Below, piece after piece: positions 1-5,165 of a stretch of DNA of 5,165 bases. The translations under genes and the position numbers were made by a program. Source of the stretch: Candidatus Latescibacterota bacterium. GTDB taxonomy: Bacteria > JAAXHH01 > JABIQT01. The first letter of the stretch is position 1. Every line of letters starts with the position of its first letter. Location of the stretch: assembly GCA_018667995.1 (NCBI GenBank), contig JABIQT010000692.1:1-5165 (forward strand), read 5' to 3'. The notes below the pieces were generated by a model that was given only the letters and a program-made list of their open reading frames with translations, made no database searches and was not told the DNA's origin.

Positions 1-1058
1 CTCTTGCCGACAATGGAGCCGTCAAGAGTAAGGTTGTCGAGATGAATCCTGCGCGTCGAATACATCATGCCGTTGATAACGATATCCGTGGTCGGCGCGT
101 CAAGATCTGTGGTGTCGATCAGCATATCTTCGCTGTCATCGGTGTCGTCCTGGTCATTATTGGAACCGCGCATGGCTATGACTGCCGGTAGGTATACCGA
201 GTCGGGCTGCGCTGCGCCGTCATAGGCCTTGGTGCTCTTGTTCCATTTCTTGCTCTTCTTCTTACTCTTGAATTTATAGTCAGTCGGGAACGGATACATC
301 TTAGCATTTATTTCCACACGGCCGGAGAAGGACACGTGGCCTGTGGCCGCAATTGTTCCGTTCAAGACCGTGCCATCGTGCAAATGAGCATTGCCCTTTA
401 CAATATGGATACCGTCTTCCATGGCACCTTCAAAGGTCTGATTGCCATTGTACACGTGCACGTAGTCCTGCTTCTTGCTCTTGCCGTGCTTCTTGGATTT
501 CTTGAAGAACTTGCCTTTGCCGAATATGGCGTGGTTGTATTTGGGTTTCCTGGCGACGCGGTTGGCGCCCCAACCCTTGAGTTGCTCAGGTCCGTTCTCC
601 TCGAATGGAACGTCGATCACAACTGTCGAGTCCAGATGCAAATGCTTCTTGTAGAGGATGACGTTTGCCAGATACATGGCCGTGTAAAGTGTATCTACCT
701 GAACGTGTACATTAACCGAGTCTGTTACGCCCTGGAAATGGCCGATGCCCGTTATGGTCGTGTTGATATCATCATAGTCAGCACCGTACATCGTATCGCT
801 GAACGTAGCCCAGGAAGGCCAATCCGAGATGTCGGTCCGCCCCATGCGCCACATGGCGACTCGAGCTCCCAGCTCGGCGTTGTACCTGGCCTGTATTTCG
901 GCACTTGTCGACCCGATCATGCTGGTCTGCGTCATGCCAACGCCCAGAAAGGCCATGCCGCTCACAAAAAGGATCCCCGACATCATCATGAGTATCGGTG
1001 TTACGGCGCCCTTTTCGTTCCGGCTGGCTTGCCTCATTTTATGAATGAACCGTTTCAT
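1..1058 (-). CDS. Large PilX/GspK-position prepilin-like protein with predicted beta-rich ectodomain (3' end outside window)
   Basis: The frame is open for 352 codons with no stop before the edge. The ATG at 1058 follows AAGGAG (1068-1073) at 9-nt spacing. A basic leader ends NEKG (14-17), followed by a Met-rich hydrophobic helix from Ala18 to about Val40 with Pro at +4 and Ile at +5, so the usual Glu5 is absent. Residues 53-72 (AEIQARYNAELGARVAMWRM) resemble the post-helix segment of PilX N-terminal domains. From about 200 the chain is made of short Gly/Asn/His-punctuated strands: IVKGNAHLHDGTVLNGTI (219-236), ATGHVSFSGRVEINA (238-252), and INGMMYSTRRIHLDNLTL (328-345). This suggests a beta-helix or polymer-forming type ectodomain (inference). 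Two Lys-rich patches (181-196 and 262-277) and an acidic one (302-311) stand out. It is third in the operon, the place of GspK, which also lacks Glu5. Family name uncertain; membership of the pilus system likely. Confidence 0.82.
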   Translation of the reverse strand, partial: MKRFIHKMRQASRNEKGAVTPILMMMSGILFVSGMAFLGVGMTQTSMIGSTSAEIQARYNAELGARVAMWRMGRTDISDWPSWATFSDTMYGADYDDINTTITGIGHFQGVTDSVNVHVQVDTLYTAMYLANVILYKKHLHLDSTVVIDVPFEENGPEQLKGWGANRVARKPKYNHAIFGKGKFFKKSKKHGKSKKQDYVHVYNGNQTFEGAMEDGIHIVKGNAHLHDGTVLNGTIAATGHVSFSGRVEINAKMYPFPTDYKFKSKKKSKKWNKSTKAYDGAAQPDSVYLPAVIAMRGSNNDQDDTDDSEDMLIDTTDLDAPTTDIVINGMMYSTRRIHLDNLTLDGSIVGK

Positions 1059-1083: not shown

Positions 1084-1581
1084 TTAAAGTCTGGGTGTCA
1101 GCCAGATCGTCGTTGAGTCCTTCTGGCCTTCCATCTCTACGACCATCATCACGGAAACCATGTCGAGCGTGTCGCCTTCCACTCCTACAACCGGTGTTTC
1201 AACTGAGAAGCTCGTCAACATGTCTTCCATAAACGTGAAGCTGTTGCCGTTCCTTTCAATAATCAGGTCATCGGAGTCCGTATAGTGATACATGACGTCG
1301 CTGCCAATACGTAAGGTGTCATTGGTTGCGGTGACAGTGATGGAATCCACCGTGGACCCCTGCACATCCTCCGCCAAGGTATTGAGCGTCATGGCCATTT
1401 CCATGGCCATACCACGCACGGCGTTTCCTTCTTCCCATTTCTGGGCCGATATTCCCATGAGGTTCATAACCGTAAGCATCAATATTCCGCTGGCTACGAT
1501 CGACATGGTCATCTCTACGAGGGTAAAACCCTTTTCTGTATGTTTGCGTTGAGTATTCATGACCTTCTGCACCCCCTTCAT
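1084..1581 (-). CDS. Type IV minor prepilin, PilW/GspJ-like
   Basis: Second prepilin of the operon, probably a minor tip subunit. It has 165 residues from the ATG at 1581. The class III signal is canonical: EKG (16-18), cleavage after Gly18, then FTLVEMTMS with Glu23 at +5, and a hydrophobic helix to about residue 45. After the helix come NTLAEDVQGS (67-76) and strands such as LRIGSDVMYHYT, SFSVETPVV and an ending TIWLTPRL. This matches the PilW/GspJ layout of a helix, a LA.D-type segment and a beta domain. Methionine is very frequent: 18 of 165 residues, including alternating MAMEMAM at 58-64. The ATG at 1581 overlaps the previous stop and has no clear ribosome site. The ATG at 1560 has GGGGG 11 nt upstream and would give an 11-residue leader, so it is a real alternative. 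The next gene follows after 25 nt. Confidence 0.9.
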   Translation of the reverse strand: MKGVQKVMNTQRKHTEKGFTLVEMTMSIVASGILMLTVMNLMGISAQKWEEGNAVRGMAMEMAMTLNTLAEDVQGSTVDSITVTATNDTLRIGSDVMYHYTDSDDLIIERNGNSFTFMEDMLTSFSVETPVVGVEGDTLDMVSVMMVVEMEGQKDSTTIWLTPRL

Positions 1582-2045
1582 TACGGTACGAGTACCGTAG
1601 TTAGAGTGACCGTTTTGGTGGCGCCATCGGGACCGTAGTTGATGTTAACGACTACTTCCTTGAAATCGTTGGGACCGTCCATGTCGCCGGCGCCCGTTGA
1701 GTCGGCCGGATCGTCTATCCATGTTATCGTGGTTACCCGAGTCGCGGGCATCTCGCCGGTTACGGTGAGATTTGAATCTGTTCGTGCGACGGCTGTAGTA
1801 ATGCCCTGGGCTATTACTTCTTCGACTCGCATGCGTGCCAGGTCGTAGGCGGATCGTTCCTGAATCCGCGTGGTGATTTGTCGTTGGCCGAATGAGAAGA
1901 TCTGTAGCGTTCCCATTACGACGATGCCAAGGATGGCAGCGCCAAAGGCGACGTCCATCATTGCAAAACCACGCATGCCATCGTGTTTTGCATCTTGGCC
2001 CCGCCGGTATTGTCGGTCAGCGGGTTTGTAAGTGCGGGTTTTCAT
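1581..2045 (-). CDS. Type IV minor prepilin, PilV/GspI-like, with Asp at the +5 position
   Basis: Inner-membrane prepilin that should be cut and methylated by a PilD-like peptidase and join the pilus or pseudopilus tip. From the ATG at 2045 it has 154 residues: a basic 26-residue leader ending MRG, then a hydrophobic helix beginning FAMMDVAFGAAILG (27-40). The +5 residue, normally Glu, is Asp (31). The helix continues into an amphipathic stretch, SAYDLARMRVEEVIAQ, like the GspI/PilV pattern. The C-terminal domain has WIDDPAD, a Gly/Asp-rich loop, then FKEVVVNINYG and a Thr/Val strand to the end, a small beta domain; the acidic loop could bind metal (inference). An in-frame ATG at 2084 with its own ribosome site would add 13 residues. 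The gene is first after the sigma-54 promoter, and its TAA overlaps the next ATG by one base (TAATG), indicating translational coupling. The identity rests on motif, size and gene order. Confidence 0.88.
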   Translation of the reverse strand: MKTRTYKPADRQYRRGQDAKHDGMRGFAMMDVAFGAAILGIVVMGTLQIFSFGQRQITTRIQERSAYDLARMRVEEVIAQGITTAVARTDSNLTVTGEMPATRVTTITWIDDPADSTGAGDMDGPNDFKEVVVNINYGPDGATKTVTLTTVLVP

Positions 2046-2052
2046 GTGGTGT

Positions 2053-2059
2053 CCTCCTT
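2053..2059 (-). promoter_or_regulatory. Strong Shine-Dalgarno that decides the start of the first prepilin gene
   Basis: The minus strand has AAGGAGG, a full match to the anti-Shine-Dalgarno core, 7 nt before the ATG at 2045. An in-frame ATG at 2084 also has AGGAG (2093-2097) at 8-nt spacing. The downstream site is the stronger and gives a more normal prepilin leader length, so it is preferred. Confidence 0.7.
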
Positions 2060-2109
2060 GGATGCACAGTGTATTGCGTGTCATTCGCTCGTCTCCTGCT
2101 GATGGTTAA

Positions 2110-2125
2110 CGCAAGATCGATGCCA
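2110..2125 (-). promoter_or_regulatory. Sigma-54 (RpoN) -24/-12 promoter for the prepilin operon
   Basis: The minus strand reads TGGCATCGATCTTGCG. It carries TGGCA at the -24 element and TTGC at the -12 element, with exactly 10 bases between the invariant GG and GC, as the sigma-54 consensus TGGCACG-N4-TTGCW requires. Only the less conserved positions differ. Taking the C of GC as -12, transcription would start near 2099, leaving leaders of about 15 nt to the ATG at 2084 and about 54 nt to the ATG at 2045. Sigma-54 promoters need an activator bound upstream; the phased TGTC array is the candidate site. Sigma-54 control of pilin genes is known in Pseudomonas, Geobacter and Myxococcus. No start site has been mapped here. 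Confidence 0.72.
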
Positions 2126-2283: not shown

Positions 2284-2333
2284 GACATGACACAGTGTCG
2301 CATTGGTGTCACGAAATTGTCATGTGTCACATG
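2284..2333. promoter_or_regulatory. Candidate activator-binding array of phased TGTC half-sites
   Basis: On the plus strand TGTC begins at 2296, 2307 and 2318, an exact 11-bp period (GTGTC, GTGTC, TTGTC), and again at 2325. The inverted half-site GACA begins at 2284 and 2289. These create two odd-length palindromes, GACACAGTGTC (2289-2299) and CATGTGTCACATG (2321-2333), whose centres are 33 bp apart, about three helical turns. The array lies about 185-235 bp upstream of the start point predicted from the sigma-54 promoter, a normal distance for an enhancer. The PilR sites upstream of the Pseudomonas pilA gene are, as I recall, repeats of (C/G)TGTC spaced by a few bases, which this array resembles. 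Binding by a PilR-like activator is inference. Confidence 0.55.
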
Positions 2334-2386: not shown

Positions 2387-2426
2387 AAAAATGGGTAATG
2401 AGAGCCCTGGGGCCCTCATTACCCAT
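2387..2426 (-). terminator. Rho-independent terminator after the platform gene
   Basis: A 12-bp perfect inverted repeat, ATGGGTAATGAG (2391-2402) and CTCATTACCCAT (2415-2426), encloses a GC-rich inner stem, GCCCTGGGGC (2404-2413). In minus-strand RNA the remaining pair (2403/2414) is a G-U wobble, so the stem is continuous at about 16 bp. In plus-strand RNA the same pair is an A-C mismatch. The minus-strand hairpin runs into five U residues (2391-2387), and the plus strand has no U-run after it. Both points make it a one-way terminator for transcription arriving from the platform gene, whose stop is about 22 nt upstream. Confidence 0.88.
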
Positions 2427-2448: not shown

Positions 2449-3669
2449 CTAGTGGGCACCTGAGGACATCTGGAAGATAGGCAGATATGTTGCCAGAACG
2501 GTTACGGCAACGATGATACCCAATCCTACGATCATTACAGGCTCAACTAATGATGTGGCTCCCAGGATAGCAGATTCCACGTCTCGTTTGAAGCTGGTGG
2601 CGGCTTTTGATAGCATCGGCCCAAGGGTACCGGACTGTTCACCTGTGGCGATCATGCTCACGAGCATCTTGGGAAAAAGGCCGGTTCGCTCCATCTCACT
2701 GCCTATGGTCTCGCCACCCATTATACCAGATCTAACCGAGCCAATGCCTTCCTCGTATATCAAGTTGTCGGCCGTCTTTTCAGCGATCGCCAGCGCATTG
2801 ACGACGGTGACGCCACTCTCAAGAAGAATGCCGAATGTCTGGCAGAAGCGTGCGATGATGGCTTTCTGGACTACTCCGCCAAGCACAGGCAGCTTGAGTT
2901 TAATTTTATCGATCTTGTACTTTCCCCCAGGCGTCTTCGCCCACATGCTGTAGCTGGCACCGATGACGATAATGCCTCCGAGCTCGTAGAGGATATTGTC
3001 CGTGAGAAACCGGCTGATACCCATGAGGATTAACGTAGGAAGCGGCAGTTCCATGTCAAATCCCGAGAAAATCTCCTCGAACTGAGGAATGAGGAAGAAT
3101 ACAACCCCAATCATGGCACAGAGGAAGAATCCCCCGATAAAGATAGGATACATACTGGCTGACTTGAGCTTCTTCGACAGCTCCGCCAGTTCCTCGAGAT
3201 ATGTGGCAAGTTTCTCGAGTATGTTGGCCATGCCACCGCCTTCCTCTGCGGCTTCAACCATGGCTACGATGTAATTGGGGAAGATGTCCTGGTACTTCTC
3301 AATAGCGTTGGAGAACGGGATGCCGGCTTCCACTTCTGCCTTCACGGCAGCCAGGATACCTTTAAGGTAGGCATTCTCCTCCCGGTCTACCAGGATGTCC
3401 AGAGTTTGAACGAGCGGAATGCCGGCGTCGATTAGCGTGGCCATCTGGCGAAAAAAGTCGGCCGTTTCCGCAGTGGATACCTTACCGGATGCCTTTGCTT
3501 TTGTTTCCTGGTCGGTCTTCTTGGCTGCAGCGCGGGTTTCCTCAATCGTGATGACTACCAGGCCCCGCCGTCTTAAGGTTCCTGCCAGGGCGCGGGCAGA
3601 TGCCGCATCCTCGACCGCCTTAATGCTACCGCCTTTATTGTCTTTGGCTGTATATCTAAAACGTGGCAT
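2449..3669 (-). CDS. pilC: Inner-membrane platform protein, PilC/GspF family
   Basis: Polytopic inner-membrane protein that couples the assembly ATPase to pilin extraction. It is complete at 406 residues, the usual family length. Order: a cytoplasmic N-terminal segment (MPRFRYTAKD, 1-45), a Lys/Ala-rich linker (46-64), a first T2SSF domain (about 66-195), a second (about 270-395), and a short tail. Hydrophobic stretches at about 173-197, 226-243 and 372-398 fit the three-helix topology. The second domain carries ATGEQSGTL (341-349), the family's GExSGxL-type motif; the equivalent site in the first domain reads AAEEGGGM (140-147), so the motif is degenerate there. The ATG at 3669 follows the ATPase stop by 12 nt and is preceded by AGGGGG at 7-nt spacing, which supports this start. 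A strong intrinsic terminator lies about 22 nt past the TAG stop, ending this transcription unit. No truncation or frameshift is seen. Confidence 0.96.
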   Translation of the reverse strand: MPRFRYTAKDNKGGSIKAVEDAASARALAGTLRRRGLVVITIEETRAAAKKTDQETKAKASGKVSTAETADFFRQMATLIDAGIPLVQTLDILVDREENAYLKGILAAVKAEVEAGIPFSNAIEKYQDIFPNYIVAMVEAAEEGGGMANILEKLATYLEELAELSKKLKSASMYPIFIGGFFLCAMIGVVFFLIPQFEEIFSGFDMELPLPTLILMGISRFLTDNILYELGGIIVIGASYSMWAKTPGGKYKIDKIKLKLPVLGGVVQKAIIARFCQTFGILLESGVTVVNALAIAEKTADNLIYEEGIGSVRSGIMGGETIGSEMERTGLFPKMLVSMIATGEQSGTLGPMLSKAATSFKRDVESAILGATSLVEPVMIVGLGIIVAVTVLATYLPIFQMSSGAH

Positions 3670-3681
3670 ACACTAACCCCC

Positions 3682-5165
3682 TCATTCCGCAAGAGCGACT
3701 TTTAGCACTTCGTCCAATGTGGTCGCACCTTCACCAGCGCGCCATAGTCCACATCCCATTAGAGACTCGCAGCCCATGTCTTTGGCCGCCTCCCAAATTT
3801 CCTCCTCGGTACCACCCTTCATTACAATCTTCTTTATAGCACTGTTTACGGAGAGTACTTCATGAAGTGCCAGTCTGCCTTTGTAGCCGGAGCCTCCACA
3901 TACCTCACATCCTTCGCCCCTGTACAACTTTTCAGGCAACGCTATCTTGGCGAAGTTTACAGCCCGATCGAGGACTTCGGCCGGAGGCGGCGCCTCTGTT
4001 TTACAGTTTGTACATATCCGTCGGACGAGACGCTGCGCCACTACCAGGTTGAGTGAACTACAGACCATAATCGGTGCAATGCCCATGTCGACGAGACGAG
4101 TCACACTCGACGGCGCATCATTGGTATGTAAGGTGCTGAACACGAGATGCCCCGTGAGTGCAGCTCGAACGGCAATTTCAGCAGTTTCCAGATCACGGGT
4201 TTCGCCAAGCATGATGATGTCCGGATCCTGGCGCAGTATGGCACGGAGCGCCGCGGCGAAAGTCATGCCAATCTCGGGATTCACGGGTACCTGATTGATA
4301 CCTTCCACTTCGTACTCGACCGGTTCCTCGACTGTGACTATGTTCACCTCTCGCGATTTTACATGGCCCAAAGCGGAATAGAGAGTGGTCGTTTTTCCGC
4401 TACCTGTTGGCCCGGTGAGATAGACCATCCCGTGAGGTCTCTGAATAGCGTCAAGGAAGAGCTGGGTGTTCAGTTCGCTGAGCCCGAGTTGGGTGATGTC
4501 GCCCAGCAGATTGCCTTTATCCAAAAGACGAAGCACGATCTTCTCGCCGTGTATCGTGGGCAAGGAGTTCACACGTAGGTCGATCTCTTTATTCTCTAAT
4601 CTTAGCTTGGCGCGCCCATCCTGTGGTATCCGTCGCTCAGCTATATCCATGCTGGCCAAGATCTTCATTCGAGAGACCACCGCGGGATACAGGCTTTTTG
4701 GCGGTGGGGAGATATCCTGCAGGACGCCATCAATTCTAAGTCTAACGGATACGGTTTTTTCGCCCGCTTCCAGATGAATGTCACTGGCGCCTGTCTGGGC
4801 CGCCTTCAGCAGGATCATGTTAACCAATCGAATGACAGGAGCGTCGTCCACTTCCAAGGAGAGGTCGGTTTCGTCAATCGTCTCCTCTTCTGCTGCTTCT
4901 ACGGTCACTAAGTCCAGAAGAGACTGGTCCACATCAATCTGGTCACCATAGACCTCCTCGATGACCTTCATGATCTCTTCGCGATCGCCCAGCATGGGTT
5001 TGATATCATTGCCGGTATGAGTGCCCAAGGTGTCGAGGGCCACTATATCGTGCGGATCCGCCATGGCTACTGTAAGCACCTGGCCTTCCCGGTCGGTCGC
5101 CACTACGCAGAAGGCGCGCGACATACGCTCAGGGATCAGGTTGACCATATCCTGATTCACCTTCA
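3682..5165 (-). CDS. pilB: Type IV pilus / type II secretion assembly ATPase, PilB/GspE family (5' end outside window)
   Basis: Cytoplasmic ATPase that powers fibre assembly by acting on the platform protein encoded just downstream. At least 492 codons are visible; family members run about 560-570 residues, so roughly 70 N-terminal residues are missing. The frame is still open at the window edge, and the GTG codon at 5160 is probably internal. Numbering from that codon: an N1-type segment with LTVAMADP (29-36) is followed by the ATPase core. The core has ASDIHLEAG (125-133), Walker A GPTGSGKTTT (250-259), an Asp box from EEPVEYEVEG (278-287), Walker B DPDIIMLGETRD (312-323) and the His box TGHLVFSTLHTNDA (336-349). 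A zinc-binding tetracysteine pair follows: C383-x2-C386 and C418-x2-C421. The Walker B region reads GETRD where GEIRD is commoner. The gene ends 12 nt before the platform gene, so the two are co-transcribed. PilB and GspE cannot be separated by sequence alone; PilB is preferred because the neighbours look pilus-like. Confidence 0.95.
   Translation of the reverse strand, partial: KVNQDMVNLIPERMSRAFCVVATDREGQVLTVAMADPHDIVALDTLGTHTGNDIKPMLGDREEIMKVIEEVYGDQIDVDQSLLDLVTVEAAEEETIDETDLSLEVDDAPVIRLVNMILLKAAQTGASDIHLEAGEKTVSVRLRIDGVLQDISPPPKSLYPAVVSRMKILASMDIAERRIPQDGRAKLRLENKEIDLRVNSLPTIHGEKIVLRLLDKGNLLGDITQLGLSELNTQLFLDAIQRPHGMVYLTGPTGSGKTTTLYSALGHVKSREVNIVTVEEPVEYEVEGINQVPVNPEIGMTFAAALRAILRQDPDIIMLGETRDLETAEIAVRAALTGHLVFSTLHTNDAPSSVTRLVDMGIAPIMVCSSLNLVVAQRLVRRICTNCKTEAPPPAEVLDRAVNFAKIALPEKLYRGEGCEVCGGSGYKGRLALHEVLSVNSAIKKIVMKGGTEEEIWEAAKDMGCESLMGCGLWRAGEGATTLDEVLKVALAE

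Follow-up and report, generated by a model that had tools for sequence, protein, structure and literature searches.

A cluster of TGTC/GACA half-sites upstream of a sigma-54 promoter as a probable enhancer of pilin genes in a Latescibacterota bacterium

The 45 bp between positions 2284 and 2328 of the window (the whole stretch of 5,165 nucleotides analysed here, which is all of contig C446 in the 6.06 Mb, 85% complete draft genome G000) hold six TGTC/GACA half-sites, and with considerable confidence we read them as an enhancer (upstream activating sequence) for the sigma-54 promoter at 2125-2110, addressed by an NtrC-type activator (bEBP). The array very probably serves as an activator landing site for switching pili on. 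A dimer of the activator would bind the inverted repeat GACA-N3-TGTC (2289-2299), further subunits would fill the adjoining GACA/TGTC half-sites, and the resulting oligomer would loop out the intervening ~160-200 bp, contact RNA polymerase-sigma-54 and open the promoter of the pseudopilin operon by ATP hydrolysis. The same activator class would act on the pilA promoters, so that major and minor pilins would be co-activated. From the DNA we infer the binding of a protein, the looping, the co-activation and which activator is at work. Genome-wide figures are based on pattern searches together with ~238 kb of G000 sequence. The window contains the following features:

3 to 1058, minus strand: third gene in the pseudopilin operon, with a PilX-like position and N-terminus, extending off the contig
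1084 to 1581, minus strand: prepilin-type N-methylation protein, a minor pilin (Pfam N_methyl; TIGR02532)
1581 to 2084, minus strand: pseudopilin-like gene (pilV-like), first behind the promoter, with an alternative start at 2045 that has a GGAGG Shine-Dalgarno
2110 to 2125, minus strand, read leftwards from 2125 to 2110: sigma-54 promoter TGGCATCGATCTTGCG (-24/-12), assigned by its sequence and by genome-wide pattern counts
2284 to 2328, no strand assigned: array of six TGTC/GACA half-sites spanning 45 bp, the putative enhancer core
2289 to 2299, no strand assigned: inverted repeat GACA-N3-TGTC, GACACAGTGTC, the predicted full operator, centred at 2294 and common to all five pilin-promoter arrays
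2321 to 2333, no strand assigned: palindrome CATGTGTCACATG, centred at 2327, not conserved at the other pilin promoters
2391 to 2426, minus strand: intrinsic terminator with a 16-bp stem and a T tail, between pilC and the array, ending the pilB-pilC transcript
2449 to 3669, minus strand: pilC, inner-membrane platform protein of the T2SSF family (profile match)
3682 to 5163, minus strand: pilB, the assembly ATPase; this is the C-terminal portion of a receiver-PilB fusion of 655 aa, the rest of which lies on contig C536

All genes of the window are read leftwards, in the order pilB, pilC, a 364-bp gap, the pseudopilin-like gene, the prepilin-type gene and the third gene; neither the pseudopilin-like gene nor the third gene matched a family in Pfam or NCBIfam. 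The region around the terminator (2370-2450) has a z of -4.1, and since this strong terminator lies between pilC and the array, the pseudopilin operon is an independent unit. Its promoter departs from the consensus by a G instead of A/T after the -12 TTGC and by a T for C in TGGCAC. Across the genome, TGGCACN5TTGCW was found at 17 sites and the reversed control at 2, by which the presence of RpoN is implied, and TGGCATN5TTGCW at 10 sites versus 5; promoters of the sigma-54 type appear to be used in G000. The sequence-only reading had placed the half-sites about 200 bp upstream of a sigma-54 promoter, and they indeed lie about 160-200 bp from TGGCATCGATCTTGCG, which heads the pseudopilin operon. 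Counted from the first base of this promoter they start at -203 to -162, within the roughly 80-300 bp upstream of a -24/-12 promoter where sigma-54 enhancers are placed.

On the plus strand, TGTC starts at 2296, 2307, 2318 and 2325 and GACA at 2284 and 2289. As first described, the TGTC at 2296, 2307 and 2318 share one strand and are spaced by exactly 11 bp, and the palindromes GACACAGTGTC and CATGTGTCACATG have their centres 33 bp apart. The inverted repeat typical of sigma-54 enhancers is thus accompanied by four more half-sites. Six half-sites in 45 bp were reached in 0 of 5000 dinucleotide shuffles of the 364-bp intergenic region (2085-2448), five of which reached five half-sites, and in 0 of 1000 shuffles of the whole window; the same-strand TGTC triplet at 11-bp steps came up in 1 of 5000 intergenic shuffles. 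The density is therefore far above that of shuffled intergenic sequence, the comparison on which the original proposal had been made to depend. GACA/TGTC is also the most clustered tetranucleotide of the intergenic region (6; runner-up 4). Over the whole window TGTC shows no enrichment (49 found, 48.6 expected), so the cluster is local.

Arrays of this kind recur in the same genome at pilin promoters. G000 has two pilA genes, both preceded by a sigma-54 promoter that lies 117-120 bp from the ATG, with an array further upstream. The promoter of pilA1 (L036, contig C368) ranks first among the other sigma-54 sites that have a half-site cluster and serves a major-pilin-like gene (MQRIRNQQSGFTLVELLIVVIIVGILAAVAIPLY...); it carries GACATGACAGTAACTGACACAGTGTCACATGACAC at -224 to -190 and has the 12-mer TGACACAGTGTC in common with the window. 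TGACACNGTGTC has only three loci in the 6.06 Mb, namely the window, the pilA1 promoter and one place within a coding region. The second gene, pilA2 (C784), is 99% identical over the compared part and differs in its upstream region, where a weaker array of four half-sites in 45 bp (shuffle P 0.0155) and GACAACATGTC are found. At 26 other sigma-54-like sites of the genome, no 45-bp stretch contains as many as five half-sites. The exact second palindrome, ATGTGTCACA, occurs at eight sites elsewhere in the genome, none with a cluster of four half-sites.

Conservation was followed in a phylum set of 16 genomes, none of which belongs to the same family; pilus-like genes are kept only in G001, G011 and G013, and no intact orthologue of the pseudopilin-operon promoter was found among the 16. 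PilA orthologues are present in G011 (84% identity) and G013 (77%), which represent other genera of the same order, and gene order identifies two orthologous promoters: pilA1 lies behind glycosyltransferase-like genes and pilA2 is divergent from an oxidoreductase-like gene (~1180 aa). Both syntenic pilA promoters of G011 carry arrays, one with 5 and the other with 6 half-sites in 45 bp (0 of 2000 shuffles for either), so that the motif is conserved in a relative, as had been asked of it; over the five arrays the shuffle P values are 0, 0.0015, 0.0155, 0 and 0. Both orthologous promoters of G013 are without an array (2 half-sites each, P 0.17 and 0.32), and pilB and pilC of this genome are remnants; the one contig that carries them also has an activator gene and part of a pseudopilin. 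The arrays are thus missing where the pilus decays. In G011, pilB and pilC were not detected though the arrays are present, which weakens the functional reading for that genome. Relatives have six exact matches to TGACACNGTGTC, all of them away from pilin and sigma-54 promoters, so the conserved unit is shorter than TGACACNGTGTC. Among ~22 pilin genes of other lineages, a weak negative control because almost none has a sigma-54 site, there was no cluster of four half-sites and no inverted repeat.

GACA-N3-TGTC is the one spacing common to all five arrays, centred at about -169, -204, -235, -210 and -213, with a shuffle P of about 0.01 in each array. When half-site density is allowed for, 84 of 3000 random arrays yield one spacing shared by all five, so the signal comes in part from half-site density. 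The other four arrays (spacings 5, 10 and 7 bp) do not share the 11-bp direct repeat, and phase concentration at 10, 10.5 and 11 bp is unremarkable in the arrays. The array is therefore one inverted repeat with a swarm of half-sites and not a phased array. Same-face phasing at 11 bp, put forward as the hallmark of the site, has to be given up in favour of the inverted repeat, since only the latter is conserved in the other four arrays, and CATGTGTCACATG, which had been counted as part of the site, is not shared with the other pilin promoters.

The use of GACA-N3-TGTC in G000 is not restricted to pilus promoters. Three divergent sigma-54 promoter pairs (C765, C815, C1006) have it two or three times, 41-43 bp apart, between the promoters (L126 2219-2311, L127 500-551, L128 1041-1094); UspA genes are among those downstream on C765 and C815, and a receiver protein gene and a dehydrogenase-like gene lie on C1006. 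These sites are mostly TTGACA-WWW-TGTC, with A/T-rich spacers, mostly TT/AA flanks (TTGACA-WWW-TGTCAA) and no half-site clusters, and a sigma-54 activator likely controls them as a stress regulon of their own. Of the 14 GACA-N3-TGTC sites in the 238 kb from G000, 10 lie within ~240 bp upstream of a sigma-54 site, a concentration with a Poisson probability of about 1e-17 relative to the rest in a sample that was partly chosen for sigma-54 sites or the motif. In this organism the repeat is, very probably, an enhancer element of sigma-54 promoters. From the divergent pairs, UspA genes included, one could argue that a broad stress/redox bEBP owns GACA-N3-TGTC and activates UspA-type genes as well as, through the arrays, the pilus genes, with no dedicated PilR-like regulator. 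We consider this doubtful, because the pilin sites, with other spacers and with clusters, differ from the Usp sites with their 41-43 bp pairing and A/T-rich spacers, and because a pair of paralogous activators that recognise similar half-sites is just as likely. The proposal of an enhancer for a PilR-like activator thus holds as far as the sigma-54 enhancer is concerned (recurrence, density and 22 activator domains in the genome) and fails in exclusive pilus use, in view of the UspA sites. Membership in a PilR regulon is not claimed, as the motif is not pilus-restricted and several regulators are candidates.

A repressor or other non-bEBP factor might bind the palindromes, the association with sigma-54 then being indirect. 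Short near-perfect palindromes would fit such a factor too, but the position near -200, the many half-sites and the concentration of inverted repeats upstream of sigma-54 promoters are traits of bEBP sites, which makes this improbable. Still less credit is due to a Pho box, i.e. an OmpR-family PhoB protein on TGTC direct repeats with an 11-bp period. The E. coli PhoB box consists of CTGTCAT repeats with a 4-bp spacer (CTGTCAT-N4-CTGTCAT) and has a period of 11 bp (PMC3333781), as have the three TGTC of the window. However, what the other four arrays have in common is the inverted repeat; they lack the 11-bp direct repeat, and its poor conservation disfavours a PhoB box; the arrays near -200 of sigma-54 promoters represent another promoter class and distance, and no sigma-70-like promoter was found in the region. 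A chance cluster in the intergenic region can be dismissed, since, despite the selection risk of a single window chosen by eye and the unconserved 11-bp phasing, no intergenic shuffle reproduced the six half-sites and arrays recur independently at four further pilin promoters in two genera: the TGTC/GACA cluster is real.

Among known systems, the PilR enhancer (Pseudomonas aeruginosa pilA; PilR of Geobacter and Myxococcus) is alike in its sigma-54 pilin promoter, its far-upstream site and its clustered TGTC-type half-sites. PilR half-sites are (C/G)TGTC repeats, and the enhancer is positioned at about -80 to -120. The proposed resemblance to the PilR motif is borne out by the TGTC-type half-sites, and sigma-54 pilin promoters with arrays are found at pilA1, pilA2, the pseudopilin operon and the orthologous G011 promoters. 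Unlike in PilR systems, the arrays sit at -160 to -300 from their sigma-54 promoters, contain one GACA-N3-TGTC each and share this core with UspA promoters. A NifA-like TGT-N11 sequence and nearby GTCT elements are hallmarks of PilR sites (PMC6058289). DVU2114 of Desulfovibrio vulgaris is a sigma-54-dependent response regulator with a pilin-upstream motif conserved in a few species (PMC3333781). By description it is similar in the type of regulator and in the place of the motif upstream of pilin genes, whereas its pilins are of the Tad type. Transcription of enterobacterial glmY is sigma-54-dependent. The GlrR/QseF sites upstream of this gene are TGTC-N10-GACA and are read by a two-component bEBP (PMC8745638); TGTC/GACA half-sites are common to both systems, but the arrangement is GACA-N3-TGTC here and the genes are different. 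As a putative conserved sigma-54 enhancer of pilin promoters, the array is ordinary in kind and new as a member, with a defined operator.

The genome has 22 matches to the sigma-54 activator domain (PF00158), so the kind of activator that the sequence-only reading required is present. Contig C536 encodes an activator of the receiver-AAA-Fis type and, after it, a receiver domain in a frame that runs on into the pilB of the window. C536 and C446 meet with a 5-base overlap, which yields an uninterrupted 655-aa receiver-PilB (L103 3047-3535 plus window 3682-5163); an intact 657-aa fusion of this kind is found in G001 (L151 8104-10077). The operon order is EBP, REC-PilB, PilC, array and pseudopilins, and the order activator-receiver-pilB is also seen in G013 (C387). 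This operon linkage makes the C536 activator the first candidate, and we name it tentatively as the possible cognate activator. Its helix-turn-helix has as best match in the set the pil-cluster bEBP of the distant genome G076 (45%). An in-frame TGA between the AAA and helix-turn-helix parts (L103 2692-2694) would be a nonsense mutation or an assembly error; the G013 copy (L130 3-701) spans the corresponding region without a stop. No PilS is adjacent to the C536 activator gene, and no close orthologue of this activator turned up in G011, a genome with arrays. Directly upstream of the activator gene lies a transposase-like reading frame (L103 426-1265), which possibly separates the gene from its original promoter.

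The C289 and C81 activators have counterparts of 75% and 63% identity in G011 and none as close in G013, a distribution that matches that of the arrays. Two activator pieces on C959 and C230, beside a membrane histidine kinase, may be one activator; no overlap of the two contigs was found, and their recognition helix WNRKQAASDLGIPYSTLRYKMQRLGIK, which we take to resemble that of PilR, is a lead only. As cognate activator we regard the C289 protein, conserved in G011, as unlikely and the split C959/C230 activator with its neighbouring kinase as similarly unlikely; that it is another one is somewhat less doubtful. Those of the candidate activators that were scanned against NCBIfam received no PilR name. 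The suggested search for a PilR/NtrC-type regulator with its sensor brought up the activator domains and the C959/C230 pieces with their kinase, and no PilS beside the C536 activator.

The findings suggest that TGTC-type sigma-54 pilin enhancers extend into this uncultured lineage with few sequenced relatives, and they offer a concrete candidate operator (GACA-N3-TGTC plus a half-site array) for sigma-54 control of its type IV pili. They also connect the expression of pili with another set of sigma-54 promoters, of a stress type, and enhancer turnover becomes visible where orthologous promoters of three genera have or have lost the array. A more far-reaching reading, which we rate as unlikely in its entirety, is that an undescribed activator with the operator GACA-N3-TGTC governs type IV pili and universal-stress genes together, as one sigma-54 regulon of this small candidate phylum, in which the pilus arrays would turn over base by base with their density kept and would be lost with pilus decay; with the activator gene heading an operon in which the receiver-domain-PilB comes next, one phosphorelay may control both pilus expression and the motor. 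In a literature search no paper on a receiver-PilB fusion stood out. In G013, L130 (C387, 3093 bp) is a decaying pilus operon: the activator C-terminus is intact, the receiver-pilB behind it is broken, and a remnant of pilC and the N-terminus of a pseudopilin follow. G000 itself has a second pilus cluster (L149, on C831) with a pilB 65% identical to that of the window and a stand-alone receiver protein; this cluster also encodes a diverged PilB-like protein of 524 aa with 31% identity to the PilB of the window.
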